Origin: Platerodrilus igneus
Taxonomy: Eukaryota > Arthropoda > Insecta > Coleoptera > Lycidae
DNA: 64,000 bases
Assembly: GCA_036346225.1 (NCBI GenBank)
Contig: JARFIW010000108.1
Location: forward strand, 3,986,501-4,050,500
Direction: 5' to 3'
Shown here: positions 1,883 through 62,440 of the stretch, in pieces
Numbering within the stretch: position 1 is the stretch's first letter
Layout of the letters: the number at the start of each line of letters is the position of its first letter
The notes under the pieces: model-generated
What the model was told of the DNA's origin: nothing
What the model saw: only the letters and a program-made list of their open reading frames with translations
Databases searched by the model: none
Program-made: the position numbers and the translations under genes

Positions 1883-3035
1883 TTGGACGATTTCTATTTG
1901 CAGCCAAAACTTGAAATGGATAGCAAAATTTTGTACTTTTTGAAGGACTTCAAATCAAAGCTTGCGGAGAACCTGGCCGGTAACTCTGCGGAATTTATGG
2001 AAAAAATAAATGAACAAGCAGAGAAACAAGACCAAAACTCTGCAAGCTTGGCAGCGAAATTTAAAAAAAGTAAAGCGAGTTTTTCAGAAAAATTACAGAA
2101 AATGCAGTACGTCTTGCAGAAAAACTGAACGAGAATGCAGTGAAGTTACAGGAATATTTATACAGAAAACTATAAAATCCGCAGAAAACCTGGAAGCTAA
2201 ATTTTCAGGCCGCTTACAAAAATTGGAAACCAAGTTTTAGATAACTTAAATGAGCAGATTTTCTGAAAAATTGTTAGAAAACTCGCGTAAATTGGAAAAG
2301 GAAGTACTAAGGATAGAAGAACGAATAATTCCAGAACTCTCAGTGTCGTTAATACAACAGCACGTCCCAGACTTCAAGAATGTTGCAGAATGCAAACAGA
2401 CGTCAAGGTTCAGAATAAAACCACCCACATTTGATGGAAAGTCACCTTGACAGACATATTTTAAACAATTCGAGGCTGCCACGAGACCTATGGGCTGAAA
2501 CAACGGTGAAAGGGCAACCACGTTAATTGTCACGTTACGAGAAGAGGCCTGGAACGTTCTGCAGACCATACCAGACCGTGACAAAAAGTTATTGGGTCTT
2601 AACATAAAGGCTGGAAATAAGGGACGGCACTCTCGTCTGCAACAGGTGTACATAGCTCATGTGAATAACCGTTACCAAAAGGCCAACCGAAACTTGCAAG
2701 AGTTTAAAAAAGATATTGCTCGCTTGGTAAAACTTGCCTACCTAACAGCACCGGATAGCTTCCTAGAATAGCTGTCAGTATATACATTTGTTAATGGAAT
2801 ACGCAACGGAGAGATTCAGCAAGTACTTCGGCTTGCTCGGCCAAAAACCCTAGATGATGCGCTAACTCATGCTCTAGAATTTGAAGCGGCAAAGCAAGCT
2901 TTGCATCGTAGTAGTGGCAAAGTAAGGAGCTTCGCATAGGAGCTAGAACAGGAAAGAATGGAGATGATTCGACAGGTACTTCGTGAAGATCAACCAAAAA
3001 GGAAGGGTCCTAAACGCTAGAATTATGGCAACTTT
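1883..3035 (+). pseudogene. gag: E1 gag (broken)
   Basis: The N-terminal part (1,883-2,128) is a Lys/Glu-rich, coiled-coil-like stretch with repeats of the form ENLxxxxxxFxEKL, and continues in other frames to 2,450. From about 2,420 the sequence reads as a Ty3/gypsy capsid: a PPTFDGKS start, then EAWNVLQTIP, NLQEFKKDIARLVKLAY, a FVNGIRNGEIQQVL stretch and ALEFEAAKQA. Several in-frame stops (for example after FDGKSP at 2,448 and near 2,770 and 2,937) and frameshifts make it non-functional. No zinc knuckle is recognisable before the protease. The capsid would have packaged the element RNA. Confidence 0.75.
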
Positions 3036-3182
3036 ATGCATATACAGTCCAAATATAAGTAGTCCAAGGAGGAAGCAGAGAAGTCGAAAAACTAAAGGGA
3101 GTCGATAGGAAGGGAGCAAAAGTCGACCTGCACTCACCATCCCCATCGCACGATCTAAGCATGTGGACAGCATATACATATA

Positions 3183-3682
3183 TGGACCGTGAAGTTATTG
3201 GCTGATACCAGAGCCATTAGCACAATTGCTATAGTGTAGAGCTCGACAGTGGTATAGTGTTACCAGTGACGGTACGTCTTCGAACAGTGGCTGGTGAGGA
3301 AATTCATACACACGAAATACTAGATATTCAGATCGGAGTTGAAAGCAAAATTATTAACCATAAAGTAATAATAGTAAACATCACCGAAGAAGTTATTTTC
3401 GGAATGGATATTTTAAAAAGGTATGGATTACATGTACATATAAAAATGGATGACTTGAGAGTAGGGAACGAGGAAGGGCCGTTTTGCAAAACAGATGACG
3501 TGTCTTCTGTGCAGGTTTATTTGATAGACGACGTTGTCCTGCCTGGAAGGACAGAAAGTGTGGTGGTGATGGGACGCTTGAATGGTGCTCTCCGGGAAGA
3601 TTTTTTACTCGCTATTGAACCGATTAATGACAAATCCTTCGGAAAGGACTTTGCCAAAAGTGATGAATGGTGCAGCTGTTAG
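3183..3682 (+). pseudogene. E1 aspartic protease (retropepsin), degenerate
   Basis: At 3,198-3,230 the active-site region reads LADTRAIST, where the family has D-[ST]-G-A, so the Gly after the catalytic Asp-Thr pair is Arg. The 141-codon open frame 3,257-3,682 holds the rest: a LRTVAGEEIHTHEI flap-like region and the conserved EVIFGMDILKRYG end of gypsy proteases. It would have cleaved the Gag-Pol polyprotein. The Gly loss and an upstream stop make activity unlikely. It lies between gag and RT as usual for the family. Confidence 0.7.
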
Positions 3683-3924: not shown

Positions 3925-5010
3925 CAAGCGTAGAATCGATACAGAAGATACACAGCCACTACAGCAGCCGAGAGGACGGACCTCTATTGGCCAAATGCGA
4001 AAACGCCGAAAAATGGTTGAAGGTGTGGAAGGGCAAGGAGTGATTGAGCACTGTGATAGCTCTTGGGCATGCTTGTTAAGAAGAAGGACGGATCAATAAG
4101 GTTTTGTGCAGACTACAGGCGATTAAATGATGAAACCAAAAAGGGCAGCTACCCACATTCAAGGACTGACGACACTTTAGATACTCTTTCACATTCGCGA
4201 TGGTTCTCAACTTTGGATTTGAAAAGTGGCTACTAGCAAATGAGTATGGAACCCAAAAATCGAGAAAAGACTGCTTCCACTATTAGTACTGGCCTATAGC
4301 AATTTGTGGTCATGCTATTTGGATTCTGCAACGCTTCTGTAACCTTCGAGCGTTCAATGGATAATACCTTGCGTGGGCTATCGTGGAAAACGTGTCTGGT
4401 ATATTTGGATGACGCGATTCTGATAGGGAGGTCGTTTGGGAGAAGACTTGGGAAATTTGGAAAAAGTGTTTCGAAGACTCACAGATGTCAAGCTGAAGCT
4501 GAATCCAAAAAAGTGCCACCTGCTAGGCGCTGAATTGAAATACCTAGGGAACGTAGTTTCACGCAACAGAGTCAGACCAGACCCGGAAAAGTACTATAAT
4601 GCCCAACGTCAAAAGACAAATATCATTTACGCAGCTCGGATCTTAAGCTATCTTCGATCGGAAAGCAAATTCATTTTGGATACGGACGCCAGTCGCCATC
4701 GGAAGTGTACTATCTCAGGTGCAGGATGGGCAAAAAAATGGTCATTGGTTATTTTAACAAGGTGCTCTCGAGACCGGGACGAATTTATTGCGTTACTAGA
4801 AGAGAACTTTTAGCTGTGATGAATGCGTAGAACACTTTTGTGAGTACCTGTACGGGAGAAAAATTTACCTGAGACCACGCCGCACTGAAGTAATTATTAC
4901 AGTTTAAAAACCCCGATGGGCAAGTCACCAGATGGATAGAAAGGTTTCACGAATATGACTTCGACACGGAACACTACTGCGCTTTTGATACGGCCTTGCC
5001 CTAAAGCTTG
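3925..5010 (+). pseudogene. pol: E1 reverse transcriptase / RNase H (broken)
   Basis: Recognisable RT blocks are an IRFCADYRRLND block (4,096-4,131), FSTLDLKSGY followed by a stop (4,207-4,235), FGFCNASVTFERSMDNTLRG (4,318-4,377) and the catalytic VYLDD (4,398-4,412). A frameshift near 4,435 moves the frame to 4,436-4,813, which reads LTDVKLKLNPKKCHLLGAEL and a RVRPDPEK end. It then jumps straight to FILDTDAS of RNase H, so the RT connection block is deleted. RNase H continues with frameshifts through a RRELLAV stretch and KNPDGQVTRWIERFHEYDFD at about 4,905-4,965. The enzyme is dead through stops and deletion. Confidence 0.8.
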
Positions 5011-5079: not shown

Positions 5080-6349
5080 GCAGCCTCTACAGATGCGAAC
5101 GTAGCCGGAGAAGGACAAGGATATAGGGGCTATTCTGGGTTGGAAAGCTAGAGAAGAACATCGGTCCTTGCATGGACATTAGCCCATTGAGTAGCACCCT
5201 GAAGTGGAACTCAACAAAATGGGATTCCCTGAAGGTAAAGAATGGGATCTTGGTGCGAACCTTAGAGAATGGACACAGATCTGTAAGTGCTTTTCAGATG
5301 GTAGTTCATAGAAGCCGAGTCGGAGATTTTAGGACACCTGCATAATATGAGCTCGGAAGAACACTTCGGTGTTAAGAAGACTCTGAAGAAAGTCCAAGCA
5401 AGATTTTATTGGATAGGCTGCAAAGACGGTAGCGTCGCAAGTTTCAGCTGTGCGCACCATTGGGAAACCGTAAGGCTTCAATAAGGCAATACAATGTGGG
5501 GTAGTTCCTTTGAGGGGATGACAATCGATATTGTCGATCCGTCCCCCGAGACCGACTTCGGGAATAAGCACATCTTGGTTGTCATGAACTATTTTACGAA
5601 ATGGACCGAAGCGAATGCCATACCAAACCAAGAAGTTGCAACCGTCGCTGCTGTGCTGGTACACGAGCTGTTCTGCCATTTTAGAGTTCCTATAGAGTTG
5701 CACGCTGACCAAGGCAGAAGCTTTGAGTCAGCTAGGGATGAAGTAGACCTGAACAACAGAACAACACAATTGCACCCGCCATCGGGTGGTATGATAGGGC
5801 GCATGAACCACGCCTTGAGCAAGTTCCAAGGTGGTCTCCTAACATCAGCCAATATCTGCAATATCTTTATTGGCCTATCGGTCTTTGGTTCATGAAAGCA
5901 CTCGACAGACATCTGCGTGCACTATGCTGGGACCCGATATACGTCCATCGTGTGATCTTGCGTTGGGTGTAACCCGGAGATGATGTCGTGAACAAGAGCT
6001 AGGTCGAGAAGCTCAAACGCAAGGTAAACGACATCCATGGTGACGTTAAGAAAAATATTCAGATTGCAAGCTATATAATGAAGACCAGTTACGACATCAA
6101 GGCGCCGGAGTCGGGTTTCAAGAAGACGACCTCGTCTGAGTGTACAACCCCCAGACGGAAGCGTTCACTGCCTCCAAAGTTACAAAAACATTGGGGGGTG
6201 TTCGTACGAAATTGTATAGAGGATCAACAACGCAGTACATCGGATTCATAAACTCCCAAAATAAAACGATAGTGGTGCATGTTAACCAGTTAGCGCCCTA
6301 TAACAGCGATGACGCCGGTAATGCCAAAGAACTACAAGCAGTGAGATGA
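5080..6349 (+). pseudogene. E1 integrase (catalytically broken)
   Basis: After a linker (5,110-5,240), the zinc-binding region reads HLHNMSSEEHFGVKKTL...ARFYW (5,337-5,415), but the following Cys pair is lost. The core frame 5,494-5,895 shows the first Asp in MTIDIVDP and the second in HADQG. The third catalytic residue, Glu in the family, is Gly in GGMIGRMNHA. The C-terminal domain is the 69-codon frame 6,140-6,349 (YNPQTE ... VVHVNQLAPY). Loss of the Glu alone would abolish strand transfer. The stop at 6,347 lies 10 bases before the macro-domain frame. Confidence 0.8.
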
Positions 6350-6359
6350 ACAAACAGAT

Positions 6360-7025
6360 ATGCTCATGATGATGTACAAAAAATCTGGACCGAGCTATGA
6401 TTGGTGCATGTACCTGTACAACAGCACAGGCAAAGCGAGATTTGGAATCACAGACGAGATTCAAGGTGATGTATCCGATGTACCATCGGAATACTCCCTG
6501 GTGCATTGCGTAGCGGCTGCTAAGGTGTTTAAAAATCAATTTGATAGGCTTGATCAATTTCGCCGACAACGTCCAGAGGTTAGAAGGACTATGCTACTAA
6601 AGGACCGAAATCTGAGCATCTATTACTTGATGACCAAACAGCAACCTGCTGATAAATTAAATTACCAGGAAGTGTGGAATACGTTACTGGACGTCAAGGG
6701 TCAGATAATCGAATTTGAAGATAAGAAGTGGCCCATATCCAAAGTAGGTTGTGGGATCGATGGGTTGGACTGGAGGGTGGTACGAAATATGTTTGAGGTA
6801 TTGTTCCAGAAAACCGGGTCCAGATTTTGGTGTGGTTATAATCCGAATACTGTGCCTGCTTTGAAAAGTGTTTATTGCTACTTCTATCAATTTGAAAAGA
6901 GCAAAAATGGTGTTGACTGTCCTTATCGCCACAGGGACTTCCAATGCCCGGGTCACAAAGTGTTCTGGCACAGAACAGCTTATAGATGGGGGCAGTATAA
7001 CGCCTTTCGGTCTAGCATTGGCTAG
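6360..7025 (+). CDS. macro domain (OARD1/TARG1-like) plus CCCH-like zinc finger, ORF3 of E1
   Basis: This 221-codon frame is uninterrupted although pol just upstream is shattered. Residues about 31-162 read as a macro domain of the OARD1/TARG1 type. Landmarks are ITDEIQGDVSDVP, SLVHCVAA, IYYLMTKQQ and VGCGIDGLDWRVVRNMFEVLF. The known TARG1 catalytic pair is a Lys in the YLxTK motif and an Asp in the GCGxD motif; both seem present, at K93 and D134. The Gly-rich loop expected after HCVAA is missing, as if about nine codons were deleted in frame. Residues 173-191 resemble a CCCH finger (C173, C187, H191), but the second Cys is Ser181. The family removes ADP-ribose from proteins or from ADP-ribose esters. 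A role in the element, such as countering host PARPs, is inference. The ATG at 6,360 is the first in frame; in the parent element the domain may have been fused to pol. Confidence 0.75.
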   Translation: MLMMMYKKSGPSYDWCMYLYNSTGKARFGITDEIQGDVSDVPSEYSLVHCVAAAKVFKNQFDRLDQFRRQRPEVRRTMLLKDRNLSIYYLMTKQQPADKLNYQEVWNTLLDVKGQIIEFEDKKWPISKVGCGIDGLDWRVVRNMFEVLFQKTGSRFWCGYNPNTVPALKSVYCYFYQFEKSKNGVDCPYRHRDFQCPGHKVFWHRTAYRWGQYNAFRSSIG

Positions 7026-7529
7026 AGTAATTATGTTAGAACTCAGGCGGAGGGTTTGAATACAAAAAATAATTAACGGCTTCTCGCCGCCTTGCACCTT
7101 TTTGGATTTGTTAATTGACAAATTCAAAACTTTCTACTAAATACAGTAAGAAATCTCATGAATGTAATTTGCATACTCTGGTTTATTGTAGATTAATCCA
7201 GAACAATTGGATAGAGTATAAATTAACATTAAGGGATTCTGCAAGTCAGTTTTAATTACAGCTTCAATCACAATGTAATGCTTTAAGCTTTAACTTAAAG
7301 CTTTAAAATATGTAACAAATTACTCTACTGTTGCCATAAATTGCCCTTTTCGATATAAATAAATTATAGTAATTAGTGTTTCGTGTAATTTAATTGTAGT
7401 ACTTTGAGATTAAGTTAATTAAGAAGATAGAATCGTAGTTTAAGAAGATTATATTTGTACTGCTATTTAAAACACGGAAAGTAAATCGTTGAATTTTTAA
7501 AAATTTTATAGTAGGTACTACGAGTTGTT
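7026..7529 (+). other. E1 3' non-coding region and probable LTR body
   Basis: AT-rich, no open frame. A purine-rich run, GGCGGAGGG at 7,047-7,055, is a possible polypurine tract, and the LTR probably begins shortly after it. The 5' LTR is too decayed to confirm the boundary. Confidence 0.45.
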
Positions 7530-7597
7530 GAAAAAGGCTTTTGTAACCAGTTTGAAAATAAAGAACTGTTGTTACTGCAAATAGCCTTTTCGTTACA
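7530..7597 (+). repeat. 3' end of E1 3' LTR
   Basis: Partner of 1,787-1,852. It ends CTTTTCGTTACA at 7,597, followed by unrelated flank. The two copies differ by several substitutions and a short indel, which indicates an old insertion. Confidence 0.7.
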
Positions 7598-7699: not shown

Positions 7700-8268
7700 A
7701 GTTATGTATTCCCCAATCTATAAATGTATAATAAAATAGAATTTATTAGAAATTATTAGAAATTGTTAAAGAAGCTTAAGTATATGCAACAATGCAAATT
7801 CAAGGATAAACCAGAAAGGTTATTAACAGTTCCTAAGCAAGTTGTGAAAACGGATGCAATACATTGTATTCCACACGATAGTGATACAGCAGGTGGCAGG
7901 TCACAAACCGTTAAGAAACCGCGATTACTTAGAAATTAAGATTGTTACATTGTATAATAAATAGAATTAAAAAATAATCAGACATGAGCTCTGCAAGTTC
8001 CCACAGATTTATGAGGGGCAGGGACAACATAAATACCACGGGACCCCAAGGCCGTCAGTCAGTCTGCAGTATGTCAGCTTTAACATTACCGTTTGCTTAG
8101 GCTACTCGCCCTAATATTAGTTCAATTATTAATTATTTTTCGACTTAGTTTAATTTTAATCAAGTTTGTCAAAATTCCACATTAATATCTGTTTAATAAA
8201 TAAATTTTGCTACAAAGTTTTTTGAAGAAGTTTTTAAAAAGACCGCTCCCAAGGCCCGAAACGTAGCT
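7700..8268 (+). repeat. E2 5' LTR
   Basis: 569 bp, aligning along its whole length with 32,518-33,057 at roughly 80% by eye. Shared blocks include GACATGAGCTCTGCAAGTTC, GGTGGCAGGTCACA and CCGCTCCCAAGGCCCGAAAC. A CAGTCAGT motif near 8,057 sits where errantivirus LTRs carry their initiator; that reading is inference. Confidence 0.85.
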
Positions 8269-13487: not shown

Positions 13488-15154
13488 TCAAATTGCAGGC
13501 TGCGACGAAATTTGACTCATGGGAATATCTTCTGGTTTCCTTGCTGAGTTATTCTTTGACATTCTTCGTATACACAATTTTTTATAATATAGGAAAAAAA
13601 CAATTCCAAGGGCGATAGCAATAATACAGTAAGTTACGTAATTATGATAATTCTCCTCAGATTGGGATTCCAGTTGAAAGTTACTGTAGAGGTATTTCCT
13701 GTTTGCATCCCTAAGTTCATCCAAATTAACATTTTCCAACTGAAGAGGAGCGAAGGTCTCATTTCGAACAGCTAATTTTGCGATATCGATCTCAAAGAAC
13801 GTCATTGTATAGGTCTCTTCATTTTCGTTGTAATATACGGTTTTCTTGTTGACCGTAACTTGGCAATCGCTTAGAATTATAATCAAGTGTGTACCCATTA
13901 GATCTTTGACTTCGTTTTGTGTTTTACACTCGACGTGGATTTTCTGGCGACCAGGACTTATCAGTATCCATTTATTATTTCATCAATATTGAATAATTGC
14001 GGCGAGGCGACCGTCACTTCTTCGGATTGGCATCCGATGGTTGTTTGATTATACAATAAATTGATTTCACAGCTGTTGTAGTTGCTACCCTTTGGGATCA
14101 GGGGCAGTTGTTTGCAATAGTAAGCATTATCCGAAATCTCCGAACATCTTTCGTTTGTTTGTGCATAAAACTCATCAGAAATAGCAATGTATTTTGTTTT
14201 AGGTAAAATAGTATAAAATTTAGAATTATCATACAGGACTGGAATCGAGTATAAATGATAAAGATTAAAATCTTGAGGATGATTGATTGGTAAATTTAAA
14301 ACGAATACAATTCTATAATTGCTGATATAGCATTGAATTTTTATTAATAGTTTATAAGGTAAAATATTACCGTATTCGATCTTAAAAGGTAATTGACCTG
14401 GGGAAAGCAGTCCCTCTAGTTTTGTTAAAATAATAAACATTTCTTCGGTTTTTATAATGCTCGGATGGAGCACATTTAATTTCGCGAAAATTATAGAATT
14501 TTCGATGTCTTGTAGTAAACTATAAATTATTTGATAAAGTTTAATTATTTGATTTACAACGTTTGACGTCACTAAAGCCTTTTCAACGACCTCATTTTCT
14601 CTCGATAAGCATAATGCGGGCCTTTAAAGAAGCCTCATTGTGGCTTATGCTTTGGATAGATGCATTAAACCTTTCGATTATTTCTACAGATATAGAATTC
14701 TGCTTTCGAATTTGGTCCGCTAATTTGTTTTGATTACGCTGTAGACTGGAAATAATGTTGTCATAATGAATGCCGTCATCGGCATCCAGATTGCCAGTAA
14801 TGCTTTTGAAAATTGAGCCAACTCCATTAATTAGACCTCTGTTTTGTCTCTTTCGGCGTGGGACTATCTCGTACATTTTGATTCTACCATGCTTTGCGCA
14901 GCATTGAGAATTTTAATATAATTATTTAACTCTACAGAGTGCACACGATTTGTGTAGATGACGTTAAGGACATATTGTCTTTGAGAATCCAAACGATCCA
15001 TTTCATGAAGTAGAGGTTCCAAATCGAAATAGTGTATCAACTTGTGGGTGTATTCCTGGATTTTGCGGTACCTAATTTTACTGGAAGTAGTCCTGGATTG
15101 GTTTGTAAACTGCGTAGGATTACTTGGGAACTTACGTGCGTGATCCTGAAACAT
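13488..15154 (-). pseudogene. env: E4 envelope glycoprotein gene (frameshifted)
   Basis: Four consecutive minus-strand frames cover a whole errantivirus Env: 15,154-14,864, 14,876-14,592, 14,572-13,961 and 13,898-13,488. The second carries a basic furin-type site (PRRKRQNR) followed by GLINGVGSIFKSITGNLDAD. That segment is the hallmark start of the fusion subunit in this family, which is related to baculovirus F proteins. The third has a Cys-containing ectodomain with NxT/S sites. The last has a hydrophobic membrane segment near its C-terminus (YCIIAIALGIVFFLYY) and a short basic tail. Three frame breaks (near 14,870, 14,580 and 13,930) prevent a complete protein as the sequence stands. Confidence 0.9.
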
Positions 15155-16460
15155 TATTCAGAATCAGAATCTATGAACTTTGAACAACTGGGGTCTGTTT
15201 GACGAGGCTTTTGTAGGCCCCTAAAATGATATCTAATGTTTGGTCGACTCTCGGTTTTCAACGTTTTAGTCACCGCATCAAGTTGGCTAATTTTTGTTTC
15301 AGCAGAGAATCGATCTCTGAGTTTATCTCTTTCCGTAATATTTACAGGGGTTTTTAATCTTATTGCTTTTCCTACTGATAATGCGGGGTCATCCTTATTC
15401 CGCTCATTTAGTTTAGATGCCACCTTGTCTTTGTTTCGAATTAGTTTTTCGTTTATGGATTCGTAGAGCAATTTAGTTTTTGTTTATGGGAGTCTACATA
15501 CGTGGATATGATTTTAGCATCTAAATCTATGTTTAAGGGTCGTCGTCTGATATATGACCATTGATTACCTCTACTGGTTTTAATTTAATCACAGAATGGA
15601 TTGAGTTATTGTATCCTAATATGGCATATAACATTTGGGTTTTCATGTCTTGGGAAGGGTGAATTTTATTTAGGATTCTTAGGTGTTCGAGTAGGGTGGA
15701 ATGCAACCGTTCGATAATACCGTCTGAACTTGGGTTTCCTGATGAGGTAAAGTGTACATCTATCTTATGCAATTTTAACAACTCTTCTAAAATATTATTT
15801 TTAAATTCAGTACCTAAATCGCACATTATTGTGGAGGGAATTCCATGATGACAAAAAAACTTAATTAAGCCTTGCATAACCTCGATTGAATTAATAGCAT
15901 TAATTTGGTATGCCTGCGCATATTTTGAAAACGTATCAATAATTGTAAGAAATCTGTTTTTTTTTCACCGAAAATGTATCAATATGAATCATTTCAAAAG
16001 GTCTGGTTGCTGTAGGGGTTATATTATAAGGGATTTTTAAGGGATGGCGGTCATATTTAGTTGTCTGACATATATTACAACGATTTATTAGGTTTTGGAT
16101 AGAAGTTTTCATATTTGGCCAATAATATTTAGATTTTATTCTCTCGTGGGTTTCATTAATACCACGGTGGTTCGTTTTTGAGGCATGGTATGCGTTTATA
16201 ATTTCTTCGATCCGATTATCTTCAACGTCCTCTAAAATTTTGTTACATTTTATAAATTTATAAGATTGCCAATTAAAATTTCGTCTTAGTACTTCACAGA
16301 ATTTCGTATACGCGTCCTCGTCCTTAAAATAGATATAATACGTTATTTGGGGGACGATAAATTGTTTGATAAAATCGATTAAGTCAGTGTCAAAATTATT
16401 TTTTGATAGTTGAATATGCATTCTTTGTCGATCACGATAATATGAAATTTTGGCAAACAA
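15154..16460 (-). pseudogene. E4 integrase (one homopolymer frameshift)
   Basis: The first frame (16,460-15,936) holds the His-His-Cys-Cys zinc domain (an HASKTNHRG and CNICQTTKYD pattern) and the first catalytic Asp in MIHIDTF. A run of nine T on the plus strand (15,957-15,965) shifts the frame. The next frame (to 15,533) has the second Asp in MCDLGTEF and the Glu in DGIIERLHS, so all three catalytic residues are present. A C-terminal basic domain follows at 15,471-15,154 (GKAIRLKTPVNITERDKLRD) and ends where env begins. Integrase joins the cDNA to host DNA and made the 4-bp duplication seen here. Confidence 0.85.
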
Positions 16461-18105
16461 GGTAAAAATTTACAATTGTCACTACTATTTGATTAATACC
16501 ATAATTTAGTGGTTTTTCTGAAATCGGTACTTCCAGGATCAGGTTTTCGTCATTGTTTGAGTGTTGCGTCATTTCTTCGGAATCATTAAAGTGTTCTTCT
16601 TCATCAAGGTTTACAAGTATAGACTGGTTATCTGAAATTTCATCGTTAGCAGGTTCCTCGGGGGATTGATCATTATCAACAATCGAATTCTGAGTTATTT
16701 CTTTAGTATGAATTTCAACGCGTGACAAGGCGTCGGCATTGGAGTTTAGTTTACCTTTCTTATAAATAATATTATAGTTATATTCGTCTAATTTTAGTCT
16801 CCACCTTAAAAGTTTCGAGTTGGGCTCTTTTAATGAGAACAACCACTGTAACGGTTTATGGTCCGTGATTATGTTAAATTCACGCCCATACACATATGGT
16901 CTAAAATATCTTACTGCGTAAACAATTGCCAAAAGTTCCTTTTCAATAGTACTGTAATTGCGCTCGCTATCATTAAGTGTGCGAGACATGTATGAAATTG
17001 GAAGGTCTTTACCTATTGGCCCCTGTGATAATACTGCACCTATAGCTACATTACTTGCATCGGTCGTTATATTAAACGGGCGTTCAAAATCAGGAAATTG
17101 AAGTATCGGTTCATTGATTAATACATTTTTACACAATTCAAAACATTCCATAAAATCGGGGGTATGTTCAATTTTAGCGTTCTTTTTAAGGCATCTTGTC
17201 ATGGGTTTAGTCAAGTCAGTGAAGTTTTTTATAAATTTACGATAGTACCCTAATAAACCTAAAAATCCTTTTATTTGTTTAGTAGTCGAAGGTAAAGGAA
17301 AGTCTGTAATAGCCCTAACTTTTTCTGGATTAGGTCTTATGCCGTCAGGCGTGACCACGTGTCCTAGGAACGCGATTTCTTTTCTCAATATTTCACATTT
17401 ATCTAACTGAATTTTAAAATTAGATTCCTCTAATCTTTTGAACACCATTTCTAAATTAGTGAGGTGCTCCTGAAGGGAAACACTCCAAATAATGATATCG
17501 TCCATATAGGCTCCACAGATATCCGATAAACCTTGTAGAACATGGTCTATAACACGTTGTAGAGTGGAAGGGGAATTTTTTAATCCCATAGGCATCCTAA
17601 GGAAATGAAAATGTCCATTTTCTGTATTGAACGCAGTTTTTTCGACATCTTTTGGGTTCATTTCCACTTGATGGACGCTACTGGCCAAATCGAGTGTCGA
17701 AAAGTATTGGCATCGACCCAACTTGTCCAGTAAATCATTGACATTTGGTAAAGGATACCTGTCGTCGACTGTCTTTTCATTAAGGCGACGGTAGTCAACT
17801 ACTATGCGCCATTTCTGTTTACCCGAAGCGTCCAGTTTCTTTGTAACTACCCAAATAGGACTAGCCCATGGGGAAGTAGAAGGTTCTATAATTTTGGCTT
17901 TTAACATTTTGTCAATTTGATGTTTTACCTCTTGTTTGTGAACAAAGGGGTATCGATAGGTTTTAGAATAGACTGGAGTTTCATCCGTGGTTCGTATTGA
18001 ATGCTTAATTTTATTTGTAAATGTAAGGTTTTGTCCATCGATATGAAAAATCTTGGAATATTTATTACACAGTTTTAAAACAGCATGTTTCTCTTCCGAA
18101 TTCAT
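16432..18105 (-). CDS. pol: E4 reverse transcriptase and RNase H, open reading frame
   Basis: 557 open codons. RT blocks in order: SPWASPIWVVTKKLDASGK (residues 78-96), [19 protein letters not shown] (102-120), STLDLASSVHQVEM (136-149), GLKNSPSTLQRVIDHVLQGL (174-193) and the catalytic YMDD (200-203). FLGLLGYYRKFIK follows at 281-293. RNase H shows TTDASNVAIGAVLSQ (D349), STIEKELLAIVYA (E388/E390) and IITDHKPLQW (D415). GADALSR-type spacing precedes an acidic tail. One oddity is DLASSVHQ, where relatives usually have a Gly-aromatic pair. The enzyme copies the element RNA. The listed ATG is only the first in frame; the natural polyprotein starts upstream with the protease. Confidence 0.92.
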   Translation of the reverse strand: MNSEEKHAVLKLCNKYSKIFHIDGQNLTFTNKIKHSIRTTDETPVYSKTYRYPFVHKQEVKHQIDKMLKAKIIEPSTSPWASPIWVVTKKLDASGKQKWRIVVDYRRLNEKTVDDRYPLPNVNDLLDKLGRCQYFSTLDLASSVHQVEMNPKDVEKTAFNTENGHFHFLRMPMGLKNSPSTLQRVIDHVLQGLSDICGAYMDDIIIWSVSLQEHLTNLEMVFKRLEESNFKIQLDKCEILRKEIAFLGHVVTPDGIRPNPEKVRAITDFPLPSTTKQIKGFLGLLGYYRKFIKNFTDLTKPMTRCLKKNAKIEHTPDFMECFELCKNVLINEPILQFPDFERPFNITTDASNVAIGAVLSQGPIGKDLPISYMSRTLNDSERNYSTIEKELLAIVYAVRYFRPYVYGREFNIITDHKPLQWLFSLKEPNSKLLRWRLKLDEYNYNIIYKKGKLNSNADALSRVEIHTKEITQNSIVDNDQSPEEPANDEISDNQSILVNLDEEEHFNDSEEMTQHSNNDENLILEVPISEKPLNYGINQIVVTIVNFYLVCQNFILS

Positions 18106-18466
18106 ATGATCCGTTCTGATGAGAGATGTATCAAAATTTTTTGTCTCGGCGTCATAATGATTTAATTCGCACGAGCGTTCAAATTGATTCGCTTGGTAAG
18201 GAAGGACATTGATTGGTCCGTATACATTTATGGCTACAGGAGAATCCGAAAATTCTTAATTGTTGTAAACGCTAAACCGTTCTTTGCTATTGTTAAACAT
18301 TCAGGTATTTCTGTATGTTCCGTTTTTATAGAGGGTATAACAATTTCACCGTTTTCTACTGACACTTTCAATTGAATTTGCTTTTCTATTAGGGGTTCGA
18401 CTTCTATAGAATTTATAGCGCTAACCGGTTCCTGAAAGTAAATGGGAATTTTCGCTTGAGGTGTAA
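18106..18466 (-). pseudogene. E4 pol linker between protease and RT
   Basis: Connects the protease to RT across stop codons. Its coding content is weakly conserved with the E2 region 11,455-11,800. No catalytic motif is expected here. The plus-strand frame at 18,184-18,375 is a shadow. Confidence 0.5.
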
Positions 18467-26579: not shown

Positions 26580-29123
26580 GCCCTCCCTTTTAAGCAACGT
26601 CAATATCCGTTATCGCCTGCATTACAAAAGCATTTGCATTCCGAAATAGATAAAATGTTAGAATCTGGTGTTATCTCTCCCTCAAATTCACCATGGATGT
26701 CTCCCGTGTTACTAGTCCGCAAAAAAATGACGAATGGCGTGTTTGTTTTGACGGCAGAAAGCTTAATTCCGTAAGTGTCTCGGACGCTTACCCTATAGCT
26801 CAAACTGACTCAATTTTAAGCCAACTTCGAAACGCTAAATTTATCTCATATATCGATCTTAGACAAGCTTTTTATCAGATACCCCTCGACCTATCCTCTC
26901 GTCCTAAAACTGCTTTTTGTGTTCCAGGCCGAGGTCTTTTCGAATATTATTTTTTTGCTATTTGGTCTTTGTAACGCACCACAAACCTTACAACGTACTA
27001 TGGATCAAACCTTAGGTCCTATCTTACATCAAGAACGTGCCTTTGTATTTTTAGATGATATTTTAGTTATCTCAAGTTCCTTTGACGAACATATCGCCCC
27101 ACTGAATGAAGTTGCAGAGCGCCTGAATAAAGCAGATTTTAAGATAAATATGGAGAAATGTCAATTTTGTTGTTCATCCCTTACATTTCTTGGTTTTATT
27201 ATCGATGGAACTGGTCTACGAGCAGATCCGGCTAAAGTCGACGCTATTACTAAATTCAAAACACCTAAAACTGTTACCGAAATTAAACGTTTAATTGGAA
27301 TGATTAGCTATTATCGCATCTTTTTACCCAACCTTTCAACTATATCTACACCCATTACCGCTTTAATTAAAAATAAAAAGAAGTCCCAAACTATCGAGTG
27401 GAATTTGGAAGCTCAACAGGCTTTCGAACAAATTAAAACGTTAATCACTTCAGCACCTATCTTAATCTCGCCCAATTCCGATGAAAAATTTTATATACAA
27501 ACGGATGCCTCACTTACTGGTTTAGGTGCAATGTTGTTCCAGGTGAGCAATGGTTTAGAACACCCAATTGCTTATGCAAGTCGTGCCTTAACTTCTGCCG
27601 AACAAAAATACTCAGCTACCGAACGTGAACTATTAGGAGTTATCTTTGGCATTGAAAAAAGAGGATATGTTAAAGGTACACATTTCACAGCAATTACTGA
27701 TTGTGTAGCCCTCGCGTGGTTAAATAACTTAAAACAACCCGCGGGTCGTTTGGCAAGATGGAACTTGCGTATCTCTCAATTTACCTTTGATGTTAGGCAT
27801 AGACCTGGCAAATTAAATATCGTACCTGATGCCTTATCTTGTGATGTCGTCTCTCTAAATCTTCTAGATCTAATTCCTGATACCTGGTATCTTAATATGA
27901 TTAAAAAAGTGTCTGAAAATCCCGATAAATTTCCTACCTTTCGTGTAACCAACAATAGATTATATAAATTTGTATCTTCTTCACCTCGCAAAATATCTAA
28001 CAACCCTGAATGGAAACTTGTTATCCCTACCGCTAATCGCAGTGAAGTACTTAAATTGTGTCATGATGATCCTATAGCTGCTCATCTTGGTGTTACAAAA
28101 ACTCTCGCTAAAATATCTCAATTATATTATTGGCCCACACTAAAACAATTTGTCTGTCGTTATATTAGGAACTGTAAAATTTGTGGTTCTCAAAAGAGCT
28201 CACAAGAGGCTCGTTCTGGCTTAATGGGTAACTTTAAACATGTATCTTATCCCTTTCAATTAATATCGCTTGACTTATTAGGACCTCTCCCCAGATCGAA
28301 AAAAGGTAACCAATATCTTTTAGTTGTCACCGATTGGTTTTCTAAATTTGTCATGGTGCAACCTTTACGTAATGCCACATCTGCCGCTAAAATTAAATTC
28401 CTAGAGCAAAATGTATTTCTTATCTTCGGTATTCCTCAGATTATCCTTTGTGACAATGGGGCACAATTTATCTCAAAAGATTTTCAAAATTTCGTCAAGA
28501 GCTACAAGATACAAAAAATTTGGTTTAACGCAAAATACCATCCCCAAGTAAATCCTACCGAAAGAGTAAATAGAGTTTTAATTACCGCTATCTCTTCCTA
28601 TATTGAATCAGACCATATCACATGGGATGAAAATATCTTTAAAATTGCCCAAGCTTTGCGTACATCTAAACACGAAGCAACCCAATTCACTCCGTCATTT
28701 CTTGTTTTTGGAAGATATACCCCAATTGATGGTAGCTATTATGGTTCAGTTCCGGACGATACTAACGTAATTGAATTTGACGAAAAAGTACGCTGGGACA
28801 AAGACCAACAATCATTACCTTCTATCTTTAACGACGTTAGAAAAAATTTGTTAAAAGCTAACGAAAAAAGTAAGGACCACTATAATTTACGTAAACGAAA
28901 TATTTCCTTCGCCTTGGGCGAACAAGTTTAAAAAAAGAATTATGTCTTATCGGATGCAACTAAAAATTTTTCTTCAAAATTAGCCCCTAAATTCATTCTT
29001 TGTAAGGTCACTCGTGTCGTTGGTCCACTTATCTACGAACTTCAAGATGCTGAAGGAAAACGCCAAGGAAGGTGGCATATTAAATACCTTAAGCCATTCT
29101 CTGCTGACCCAAATGCTAGTTAA
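26580..29123 (+). pseudogene. pol: E3 RT, RNase H and integrase (nearly intact)
   Basis: RT begins near 26,580 (PFKQRQYPLSP) and runs in one frame to 26,974. A T7 run at 26,947-26,953 shifts into the long 26,919-28,931 frame of 670 codons. There the catalytic FLDD is residues 44-47. RNase H has D196, E235/E237 and D261. The integrase zinc motif is H382, H389, C419 and C422, and the integrase core has D452 (SLDLLGP), D512 (CDNGAQF) and E548 (NPTERVN). A TAA at 28,929 then interrupts the frame; the same frame continues to 29,123 with the GRWHIKYLKPF end. Only one homopolymer shift and one stop separate this gene from an open pol, so the family was probably active recently. Confidence 0.92.
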
Positions 29124-32517: not shown

Positions 32518-33057
32518 AGTTATATATTCCCCAATATTTATATGTATTACAAAATAGAATCCAATAGAAAATTATTAGAAATCATTAAGAAATTATTACG
32601 TCAAGTACAACAATGTAATTCAAGGATAAATATAAAAAGGTTATGAGAACGGATACAATACAATGTATTTCAGACGATAATGACACTGCAGGTGGCAGGT
32701 CACAGACGGTTAAGATACTGCAATTACTTAAAAAGTAAGATTGTTACAATGTATTTATGAATAGTATTAAGAAATAAGCAGACATGAGCTCTGCAAGTTC
32801 CCAGAGAATTGTGAGGGACAGGAACAACATAAATACCCCGGGAGCCCCAAGAGCAATCAGTCAGTTTTAAGTATTTCAGCTTTAACATTGCAGTTTGCTT
32901 AGGCTACTCACTCATATTAGTTCAATTATTAATTATTTTTCGACTTAGAGTAATTTTAAACAAATTTGTTAAAATTCCATAATTAACGTCTAATTAAACT
33001 AATAAAATTTTGGAAGTAGTTTTTAAAAACACCGCTCCCAAGGCCCGAAACATAACT
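32518..33057 (+). repeat. E2 3' LTR
   Basis: 540 bp, from AGTTATATATTCCCC to the terminal TAACT. It is about 29 bases shorter than the 5' copy through small deletions. Confidence 0.85.
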
Positions 33058-54017: not shown

Positions 54018-55212
54018 AGCTGGATGAATGAAAAAATTAATATGCAACAAGACGGAGAAATTAAATTAATTAGAATGAATGTTAGGGATATAAAACCATA
54101 TAGCAAAAATATAAAGGATGCCAGAGGAAACGTCATTATAGAAAATGTAGAGAAAGTAATTAGATGACAAGAATATATAAGTAATTTATATGCAGGAGAG
54201 GAACTAACAGCATTAGAACAGGAATCAGACATTGAAAATGATGACTTGGAATATCCTATACTTAGAGATGAGTTTGAATTAGCATTAAAGTGTATGAAAA
54301 ATGGTAAGGCGTCGGATACAGATAAGGTGCAAGCAGAAACTCTAAACGCCTCTGGACAAGCAGTAACAGAACATCTCTTCCAACTTGTAAGCTATATGTA
54401 TGAGACAGGCGAGATACCCAAATATTTCAAACGTAACATCATAGTAACTATACCAAAAAAAAGAGGCGAGGATAAATGTGAAAATTTTTGAACAATAAGT
54501 TTGACAGCACATGTCTCAAAAATATTAACTACAATTGTACAAAGACGAATGGAAACGAGCTGAAGAAATACTGGGAGAAGATCAATTTGGGTTTAGGCAC
54601 AACAGGGGAACACGGGAGGCTATTTTAGCTCTGAGGGTGATAATGGAGAAAACAATAGAGAAGGGGGAAAGCGTATATATAGGGTTTTTACATCTGGATA
54701 AAGCATTCGACAATGTAAAATGGAAAAAAATGTTCGAAATACTCAAAAAGATTGGAATGAGTTTTAAGGACAGACGGATAGTACATAGCTTATACAAAGA
54801 GCAAACGGCGGTAATAGAATTAGAGCAAGAAAGTAGAGAAGTAAATATTAGGAAAGGGGTGAGACAAGGATGTGCCTTATCCCCGGTAATTTTTAACTTG
54901 TACATTGACGAGGCAGTGAATACTGTCAAATACAGGAAGACATTTGGAATTACAATGCAGGGACAAAAGATTGATATGCTTAGATTTGCAAATGATATAG
55001 CGGTATTAGCATCTAGCAAAGAAGAGTTAGAAGCTGCTCTTAATGAAACGGAAACAGTTCTAACAGAAAGATACGGTATGAAAATTAACAAAAATAAAAC
55101 TGAAGTAGTATGCAGAAGAGGGGAAAATAAATCAAAAACAAGGATACAAATAGGTAACAAGAACTTACCAGAGGTTAAGGATTTCTGCTACCTAGGAAGC
55201 CAAATAACGTAA
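54018..55212 (+). pseudogene. LINE2 reverse transcriptase
   Basis: Begins in a linker and LKCMKNGKASDTDKVQAETL, passes KYFKRNIIVTIPKKRGEDKC with a TGA at 54,490, then the 225-codon frame 54,535-55,212: EDQFGFRHNRGTREAILALR, FLHLDKAFDNVKW (first Asp), KGVRQGCALSPVIFNLYIDE and MLRFANDIAVLA. The catalytic pair of the family, [YF]ADD, is FAND here (residues 151-154 of the frame), so the first Asp is Asn and the enzyme should be inactive even without the stops. Confidence 0.85.
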
Positions 55213-57437: not shown

Positions 57438-59100
57438 TGGAGAATGTTACCATTCAGTGAATAGCCATGTAGAAACAGATGGTAAGTTCTGTAGAATGAC
57501 TTGACAGTACATTTTTTACATTTAAAGGAAGTCTATTAACAAGGCACCATTGGTTTATTATTTCCAGACTTTGTTGAAGTTTATTACAATCATGTTGACT
57601 TTTAATTTCAGCATATAGTTTCAGGTCATCAGCATAAAGAAGATATTGAACGTCTAACATGTCCCCAATGTCATTGATGTAAATAATGAAAAACAAGGGT
57701 CCAATTATTGAGCCCTGCGGAACCCCAGATTGAGCCTTTATATATTTAGATTGAAATCCATGATATTGCACGTATTGAGTACGATTATGTAAGTAGGAAG
57801 ATATAAGCTTCAGAAGGGTATCTGAGAATCCAATTTGGTCTAACTGTTGTATAAGGATTGAGTGACAAATACGATCAAACGCCTTCGAGAAATCAGTATA
57901 CAAAATATCCACCTGAGATCTGCGATCAAGGGCGACAGATATAAATTGGGTGATACACAAGAGGTTTGTTATAGTTGATCGACCCTTAATGAAACCGTGT
58001 TGGTGGGTAGTGATTTTGTTAGTGACAAAATCCAACATACGTGTTTGTAGCAGGGGTTCGAATACCTTAGAGAAGTTGTTTATTATGGCAATAAGACGGT
58101 AATTGCTGACATAATTTTTTTCACCACTTTTATACACTGCAGTAATCTTAGATAATTTCCAGGCTGAAGGATAAGTTGATGTTCTAAGTATAAGGTTGAA
58201 TATAAATGTTGATGGAGCTAGAAGTGCCGGCTTACAGTCATGAAGAAAAATTGCTGGTATGTTATCTGGCCCCATAGTCATGCTTGATTTAATACTGTTG
58301 TAGGCTTCTAGCACCTCTAGTTCAGTTACTTCCTTTATGTGGAGTATATTTGTATTATGTACAGTGTTAGTTTGGTCTGCAACAGTAATGTGTTCGGAAT
58401 CATAAGAAGTTGAAAAGAAGTCTGCAAAGGCATTTACAATAGCGGTCCCAGTATTAAATTTGATAAGAGTTATATACCATAGAGCTGGAATTGATGCAGT
58501 ATTATTCTTATTTGACATATATGACCAGAATTTCTTTGGTGTAGAATTGATGTTAGACTCTATATAAGTAAGGTATCTATTGTAGGAGACAGAGATGTCT
58601 GTTTTTAATTGGGTACGTAGTTCACGGAATTTTCCATATACTTCAGAATCACTTGTTCTACGGTGGAGCTTCCATAATGGGTATTTATGCTTAATCTTTT
58701 TGATAATAGCTAAATCAAACCATGGGGGGTAATTATTTCTGCAGGCCATTGTCTTGGGCACTGTCTGATCAAAAATCTTGTAAAGTGTAGTATATAGGTA
58801 GTCGCACGCCGTTTCAACATTTGTACAACCGTAGAGCTTGCTCCAGTTAACTCTGGATAAATCACAATACAGTGTTCTGAGATCAGCCTTGCGAAAATTA
58901 AAAGACTTTTTTGCAGAGTATCCAAGACCACTGGCCCCACTAACTTTCAATGCTGTTGTAATTATTAATGCAGGGTGATAAGATTCCTCATTGAGAATCA
59001 ATTGGTTGGATCTAGTCACAATGCATTCCATTGAACTAAACACAAGGTCCGAAAGTCTATCGCTAGTGTTATATACTTGATTGAATTGACGCAGATTATA
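57438..59100 (-). CDS. LINE3 reverse transcriptase, long open frame
   Basis: 529 open codons (59,043-57,454). The first 180 residues are the endonuclease/RT linker (PPWFDLAIIKKIKHKYPLWK). RT motifs follow: SSMTMGPDNIPAIFLHDCKP (253-272), KITAVYKSGEKNYVSNYRLI (299-318), GFIKGRSTITNLL (350-362), DILYTDFSKAFDRICHSIL (379-397, first Asp), SGVPQGSIIGPLFFIIYIND (439-458) and the catalytic YADD (470-473). A frame break near 57,500 separates the last residues from the C-terminal block. All catalytic residues are intact. The ATG at 59,043 is internal to a longer ORF2 whose endonuclease lies upstream in another frame. Confidence 0.88.
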
Positions 59101-59650
59101 GAATTCAGCAAATTAGTCAACTTGTGTTAAAATATTAGAGGAAATATTTTGCTTGTTAACATATTCTGGAATGTTGAAATCACCAATGAATATAGTATCA
59201 GATCCATAATTGGCATCTAGTGAGATTAAGAACTCGAACATCAATTGATAATCATCAGGTGACAATGATGGTGGAATATATATTGCAAAGATATTGACCG
59301 AACGATTTTTATCAATATCTTTATACCAACAATATCAATTGGTATGTAGGATAAATGGTGGCAAGTGGTGTTTATACTATAAGACAGTATATTAGAGTCA
59401 ACTGCAAGGAGAACACCACCTCCACGTTTAGTGTTAGTGTTTTCAAAATTCCTGTCAGATCGGAAAACTTGATAGCTATTGGGAAACAATTCACAATTTT
59501 CGACACTTGATGACAGCCAAGTCTCTGTTAATGTTATGATGTGGTAATAGCCATATAAGGTAGATAGGTTATTAAAAAAAAACATGCGTCTTAGAATTGA
59601 GACCACGCACATTTTGATAGTATATTAGGAAACTTTCGGGGACATTACCT
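59101..59650 (-). pseudogene. LINE3 endonuclease (one frame break)
   Basis: From FLIYYQNVRGLNSKTHVFF (59,630-59,570; the N of QNVRG is the usual first ligand), shifting into ITLTETWLSSSVENCELFP (Glu of the ET-W motif), FRSDRNFENTNTKRGGGVLL and IPIDIVGIKILIK. A T5 run at 59,305 breaks the frame. The duplicated copy has T6 here and reads on through SVNIFAIYIPPSLSPDDYQ and IFIGDFNIPEYV (GDFN motif). So the parent was an intact APE-type nuclease. Confidence 0.82.
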
Positions 59651-61919: not shown

Positions 61920-62428
61920 TCAGCAAATTAGTCAACTTGTGTTAAGATATTAGAGGAAATATTTTGCTTGTTAACATATTCTGGAATGTTGAAATCACCA
62001 ATGAATATAGTATCAGATCCATAATTGGCATCTAGTGAGATTAAGAACTCGAACATCAATTGATAATCATCAGGTGACAATGATGGTGGAATATATATTG
62101 CAAAGATATTGACCGAACGATTTTTTATCAATATCTTTATACCAACAATATCAATTGGTATGTAGGATAAATGGTGGCAAGTGGTGTTTATACTATAAGA
62201 CAGTATATTAGAGTCAACTGCAAGGAGAACACCACCTCCACGTTTAGTGTTAGTGTTTTCAAAATTCCTGTCAGATCGGAAAACTTGATAGCTATTGGGA
62301 AACAATTCACAATTTTCGACACTTGATGACAGCCAAGTCTCTGTTAATGTTATGATGTGGTAATAGCCATATAAGGTAGATAGGTTATTAAAAAAAAACA
62401 TGCGTCTTAGAGTTGAGACCACGCACAT
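61920..62428 (-). CDS. LINE3 endonuclease in second unit
   Basis: 166 open codons spanning ITLTETWLSSSV, FRSDRNFENTNTKRGGGVLL, NIFAIYIPPSLSPDDYQLMF and DTIFIGDFNIPEYV, so it covers the Glu and GDFN motifs that the first unit splits. The remaining Asn and SDH motifs lie upstream and downstream of the frame. Confidence 0.8.
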
Positions 62429-62440
62429 TTTGATAGTATA

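Follow-up and report, generated by a model that had tools for sequence, protein, structure and literature searches.

What is a macrodomain doing between the integrase and the 3′ long terminal repeat (LTR) of an insect retrotransposon? The question is raised by a plus-strand open reading frame of 221 codons at positions 6360 to 7025 of the window, which is the whole 64,000-nucleotide stretch of Platerodrilus igneus DNA analyzed here. The frame extends from stop to stop over 6345 to 7025, with its first ATG at 6360, and it exceeds the longest frame (191 codons) among 300 mononucleotide-shuffled versions of the element. In the first-pass annotation, it was read as a TARG1/OARD1-like macrodomain followed by a C-x7-[C/S]-x5-C-x3-H finger. 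The macrodomain was confirmed by sequence, human TARG1 being a phmmer PDB match of the frame (E = 2.7e-11, residues 37 to 159), and by the structure prediction that had been proposed as a check, since a fold search with a model of the frame also retrieved TARG1. That model was of moderate quality (pLDDT 56) and its input alignment contained TARG1s; a single-sequence fold was uninformative (pLDDT 37), and the frame did not reach the curated Pfam Macro cut-off. The TARG1-type macrodomain spans 6453 to 6821 (plus strand) and keeps both equivalents of the catalytic residues Lys84 and Asp125 of TARG1, as K98 and D139. Eight residues of the ADP-ribose loop, which reads EDCRMGAGIA in human TARG1, are deleted. 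CCCH zinc fingers have the spacing C-x7-9-C-x5-C-x3-H, which is fitted by young copies of the element described below. The proposed finger does lie in the frame, at 6876 to 6932 on the plus strand, but it is a decayed remnant (C-x7-S-x5-C-x3-H) with serine in place of the second cysteine; it is weak on its own, a three-of-four ligand match arising in 2 to 4% of shuffles, and is complete in the young copy P0121.

The surrounding sequence places the frame between a Ty3/gypsy integrase and a 3′ LTR, with integrase (rve) and reverse transcriptase (RT) pieces upstream and an LTR end downstream, all on the plus strand. At the 5′ side, a remnant of the 3′ end of the 5′ LTR (R-U5-like, 1791 to 1852) forms a direct repeat with 7533 to 7597; the repeat measures 62 to 65 bp, is 86% identical and has a 41-bp core. 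The remaining 5′ LTR could not be aligned, scores upstream of 1791 being below those of shuffles, and the 1791 to 1852 segment is also present in other copies of the genome. The gag region (1918 to 3203, broken frames) is assigned by position only, and the single piece of it scanned had no Pfam match. A protease-like region (3221 to 3682), equally without a Pfam match, is named from its place and is 42 to 44% identical to the pre-RT part of the open frame of young copies. RT lies in broken frames at 4069 to 4618, as found by tblastn using the pols of other gypsy elements in the window, and is 71% identical to young copies over 4069 to 4449 and 55% over the next piece. RNase H (4726 to 4965, tblastn) is 64 to 65% identical to them. 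The broken integrase occupies 5317 to 6349 (tblastn E = 2.8e-11; rve E = 1.5e-5, below the Pfam cut-off), with 58% identity to young copies in its core and 47% in its C-terminal piece. Its last frame stops at the TGA at 6347 to 6349, 10 nt before the macrodomain ATG and in a different reading frame. The 3′ LTR is placed at 7034 to 7597, with a start that probably falls at about 7026 to 7054 and an AATAAA in its last part. Since at least 29 frame breaks are needed in gag-pol, the window element is dead. The window copy is a relic, an old member with damage of its own in both the ADP-ribose loop and the finger.

Other repeats were recorded in the window. A 141-bp tandem duplication (290 to 430 and 444 to 584) is 94% identical, and an interspersed repeat pair (7700 to 8185 and 32518 to 32986, 79 to 86% identical) may represent the LTR of the element that follows. 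Another gypsy-type element lies on the minus strand at 13488 to 18255, with pol at 16432 to 18255 and a Baculo_F-like envelope gene at 13961 to 14623 (Pfam E = 1.6e-13); it is errantivirus-like, as would suit an insect host. A 703-codon gypsy pol frame with RT, RNase H and integrase (26820 to 28931, plus strand) is about 30% identical to the macrodomain-bearing pol. The segments 54529 to 55212, 57454 to 59112 and 61928 to 62440 contain RT frames that probably belong to non-LTR elements, as well as an endonuclease-like frame. No tRNA genes or Rfam families were found in the window.

The arrangement recurs across the 2.71-Gb genome. A search with the window frame gave 12,804 first-look candidates, and all of the 150 that were scored matched, the window copy itself included, with a non-self identity of 43 to 61%. 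Five of these 150 (self included) had no stop within the match, three of them covering part of the frame only. We fetched 20 loci, namely ranks 2 to 17 and the four non-self matches without stops. Pol pieces lay upstream on the same strand in 16 of the 20 at E ≤ 1e-4 and in 17 at E ≤ 1e-2; in L095 every part is present in sequence, from the protease-like region through RT, RNase H and integrase to the macrodomain. The window 3′ LTR matched downstream of the macrodomain region in 13 of the 20, and direct repeats flanked the unit in L093, L094 and L100. Three loci (L093, L100 and L101) have protease-like and LTR sequence with no RT or integrase match between them; they appear to be deletion derivatives that keep the macrodomain region, an impression that may reflect bias in a sample chosen by its macrodomain.

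Residues were counted in 28 old copies, comprising the 20 fetched loci and eight further short loci chosen by the analyst. The lysine was kept in 27/28, the aspartate in 19/28 and both in 18/28. Each of the four finger ligand positions held the expected Cys or His in 21/28 copies, and all four did so in 10/28; a serine at the second cysteine was seen in three others besides the window copy. The seven or eight loop residues missing from the window are carried by 22/28 copies, the alignment splits at that place in three, and the remaining three lack them in alignments that match poorly there. The loop itself is poorly kept (S in 13, R in 11 and G in 10 of 29 copies, window included), and none of four old-copy pieces scanned reached the Pfam Macro cut-off. 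These residue counts make it very probable that the ancestral element carried the loop, the Lys/Asp dyad and all four finger ligands, and that the loop segment and one cysteine disappeared later, in the window copy alone or also in a few relatives.

Young relatives with long open frames came from a search of the genome with coelacanth TARG1. Among 8,383 first-look candidates, the best 150 were scored, and 136 of these had no stop inside the match (manual count), in open frames of 147 to 1653 codons. In pieces of L118 and L121, the models Integrase_H2C2, rve and Integrase_p58_C are followed by Macro and CCCH models, all in one frame. The profile search proposed with the first-pass annotation succeeded in these two young copies, the only two scanned (Macro 27.6 and 24.6 bits against a cut-off of 22), but not with the window frame. 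No CCCH model reached its Pfam cut-off, zf-CCCH scoring 20.1 and 19.7 bits in two young copies, just below 20.5. The L121 macrodomain piece matched TARG1 at E = 1.4e-37; its finger matched CPSF4/CPSF30 at E = 3.7e-4, a short, low-scoring match that is the nearest among solved structures. The longest frame, of 1653 codons (L122, 1051 to 6012), includes protease-like, RT, RNase H, integrase and macrodomain regions as matched to the window pieces and is flanked by a 479-bp direct repeat that is 100% identical; L123 has a 1418-codon frame and a 421-bp direct repeat, 99% identical. In both, the 5′ repeat runs off the end of the stretch. Long-open-frame relatives in the same genome, two of them fetched between direct repeats, have pol followed by macrodomain and CCCH finger, an arrangement that the first-pass annotation had proposed to look for in intact copies. 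The Ty3/gypsy order protease, RT, RNase H, integrase was found in L095 and L122, and the flanking LTRs typical of such elements in L122 and L123, the protease being named by place only.

Of the 14 young loci, 13 have integrase upstream, and in five (L116, L118 and L121 to L123) the macrodomain frame takes in all 310 residues of the integrase piece. Ten of the 14 have no stop between the integrase end and the macrodomain, so the appearance of a separate open reading frame in the window, taken at face value in the first-pass annotation, is a product of decay. A stop inside the macrodomain was seen in three (L111, L116 and L117). All 14 keep the equivalents of the TARG1 Lys84/Asp125 dyad, and each CCCH ligand is kept in 13 or 14 of them, as C-x7-C-x5-C-x3-H in P0121. 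Their ADP-ribose loop reads QDLEMSRGIA or a near variant, so that MGAGIA of TARG1 becomes MSRGIA; two reptile TARG1s read MSAGI there. When the window integrase was used as the query, 150 of 20,149 candidates were scored, and at least 17 places were common to this list and the macrodomain list (compared by eye), always 621 to 634 nt apart. The window macrodomain is 40% identical to those of L122 and L123; given also the identities in RT, RNase H and the integrase core, the window element and the young family are related lineages of one kind. An abundant Ty3/gypsy lineage of this genome therefore carries a macrodomain and a CCCH finger fused to pol.

The young family is under selection in this added region. 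Over the macrodomain, finger and tail, pN/pS was 0.46 (14 young copies, 91 pairs), and it was 0.32 for the integrase (13 copies, 78 pairs). Young-old comparisons gave 0.45 and 0.34, respectively, and old-old comparisons gave 0.55 and 0.62. Recomputed on the best alignment per young copy, the overall value was 0.42, which divides into 0.27 for the macrodomain (bootstrap 0.17 to 0.45), 0.26 for the finger (0.11 to 0.80, a wide interval) and 0.81 for the sequence after the finger (0.56 to 1.25), which in some copies is located past the stop codon. The young macrodomain is thus under purifying selection with its catalytic dyad kept, and the finger is also selected. Among old copies, the differences are closer to neutral, at 0.251, 0.236 and 0.298 for the three codon positions, a ratio of 1.22 (1.13 to 1.32), similar to 1.17 in the integrase and 1.25 in the protease-like piece.

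The source of the macrodomain was addressed with a midpoint-rooted FastTree phylogeny of 53 macrodomains, drawn from 14 young and 7 old copies, 8 animal TARG1s and 24 of 73 viral-contig loci, a set that included neither arthropod TARG1s nor alpha- or coronavirus domains. The transposon macrodomains formed a single clade (0.995) that was sister to animal TARG1 (0.979) and apart from the 24 sampled IMG/VR loci. This one tree suggests an animal origin. The window frame alone gave 27 candidates in a protein search, none at E ≤ 0.001, and its residues 88 to 190 gave two, neither at E ≤ 10. A search with a TARG1 alignment gave 2579 matches; the 120 listed were mostly vertebrate OARD1s, and none was recognizable by name as a transposon protein. 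No relatives of the window frame, of query A1 or of the young protein were found in viral contigs, and none were found in prokaryote genomes. Query A2 did find 73 viral-contig loci (L001 to L073), which served for comparison only; these contigs encode TARG1/DarG-like macrodomains, and the Lys and Asp equivalents are both kept in 71 of the 73.

Several known systems resemble this one in part. Macrodomains act as counter-defences in RNA viruses, and the macrodomains of alpha- and coronaviruses and of bacterial DarG are comparable systems; in the tree, the transposon domains group with animal TARG1 and not with the 24 sampled IMG/VR loci. Chromoviruses have a chromodomain at the integrase C terminus and so share an extra domain after the integrase, which here is a macrodomain with a CCCH finger instead. 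Human TARG1 (OARD1, C6orf130; ALC1-like macrodomain class) is alike in sequence, in the fold of the window model, in the dyad and in the GCG-L-D loop, but it stands alone as a host enzyme of about 152 residues, whereas the transposon domain is fused to integrase, is followed by a finger and has the altered loop. In orchids, Ty3/gypsy elements likewise bear an extra enzyme that erases a covalent mark, an AlkB m6A demethylase whose activity is reported in vitro (PMC9289625); they differ in their plant host, in having an additional open reading frame and in acting on RNA methylation, and the main text of that report does not mention macrodomains or ADP-ribosylation. LTR retrotransposons of bdelloid rotifers also have an enzymatic domain downstream of pol, yet it is a GDSL esterase or DEDDy exonuclease in a separate ORF3, and macrodomains and ADP-ribosylation go unmentioned in the accessible text (PMC5408684). 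LTR elements bearing additional enzymes are thus already known; among the open-access titles and abstracts retrieved, none names a retrotransposon with a macrodomain, a scope that leaves subscription journals, preprints and Repbase outside.

Two explanations would assign the frame to the host. Taken alone, the window is compatible with a TARG1 retrocopy or host gene lying by chance between pol and LTR in one copy. The genome-wide recurrence of the arrangement, together with the stop-free junctions of young copies, refutes it and leaves it a negligible probability; the independent host gene that the first-pass annotation had named as an alternative fails on the pol pieces upstream of old copies and the integrase upstream of young ones. 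Host domestication of the window frame after the death of pol could be argued from the many breaks in gag-pol and the lack of any in the macrodomain frame (P about 0.013). We rejected it as very improbable: with five of the 150 scored copies free of stops, an occasional open copy is expected among thousands of candidates, and the window copy is without the loop segment and one finger cysteine.

We prefer, at a probability of roughly 0.45, the reading that a Ty3/gypsy lineage with an animal-type TARG1 domain and a CCCH finger fused to the C terminus of pol uses this domain to blunt ADP-ribosylation-based host restriction. The lineage took up the domain and finger and joined them to the end of its pol frame. 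The product may be freed by the element protease, if such release is assumed, or may stay on the integrase; the finger would keep the macrodomain close to element RNA, and the macrodomain would take mono-ADP-ribose off acidic residues of element proteins or off nucleic acid ends, thereby blunting restriction. In TARG1, Lys84 and Asp125 are described in the accessible text of the sources as the residues for binding or attack and for hydrolysis (PMC5087735, PMC9411070), and the retention of both favors catalysis over binding alone. The CCCH protein ZAP/PARP13, whose own PARP domain is defective, is reported to restrict, in cultured cells, retrotransposons of the non-LTR and IAP types, in work on human and mouse elements and not on the present one (PMC4982230). 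Still more tentatively, the domain might be a selfish retroelement's own ADP-ribosyl hydrolase, steered to RNA by the finger, and hence a pol-fused counter-defence that is the counterpart of viral macrodomains, independently acquired from an animal TARG1 gene. The changed loop, in which MSRGIA might weaken ADP-ribose binding, would point against an eraser, as would the old copies, which keep the aspartate less than the lysine and the loop poorly.

The main rival, which we consider doubtful, is integration targeting, in which a macrodomain at the integrase C terminus would recognize ADP-ribosylation on chromatin or at damage sites and so direct new insertions, as a chromodomain might. TARG1 goes to DNA damage, and the macrodomain is encoded in one frame with the C-terminal domain of the integrase and directly after it, with 621 to 634 nt between the integrase and macrodomain matches in the 17 paired hits; a CCCH finger, however, is an odd partner in chromatin reading, and the catalytic aspartate of all 14 young copies goes beyond the needs of a pure reader. 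With the hydrolysis residue conserved, we prefer an eraser to such targeting. Less likely still is processing or export of element RNA, with the finger as the main function and the macrodomain acting on RNA-end ADP-ribose as housekeeping of the element's own RNA. The CPSF4/CPSF30 match and the low pN/pS of the finger would fit this, but the former is short and low scoring and the latter has a wide bootstrap interval.

Some invertebrate "OARD1-like" gene models may be transposon fragments of this kind. For the element itself, selection on both domains in young copies hints that it fights or exploits the ADP-ribose signalling of the cell. A domain that is selected and catalytically equipped would suggest that ADP-ribosylation restrains retrotransposons strongly enough to select for an eraser, or that ADP-ribose marks are able to steer integration.
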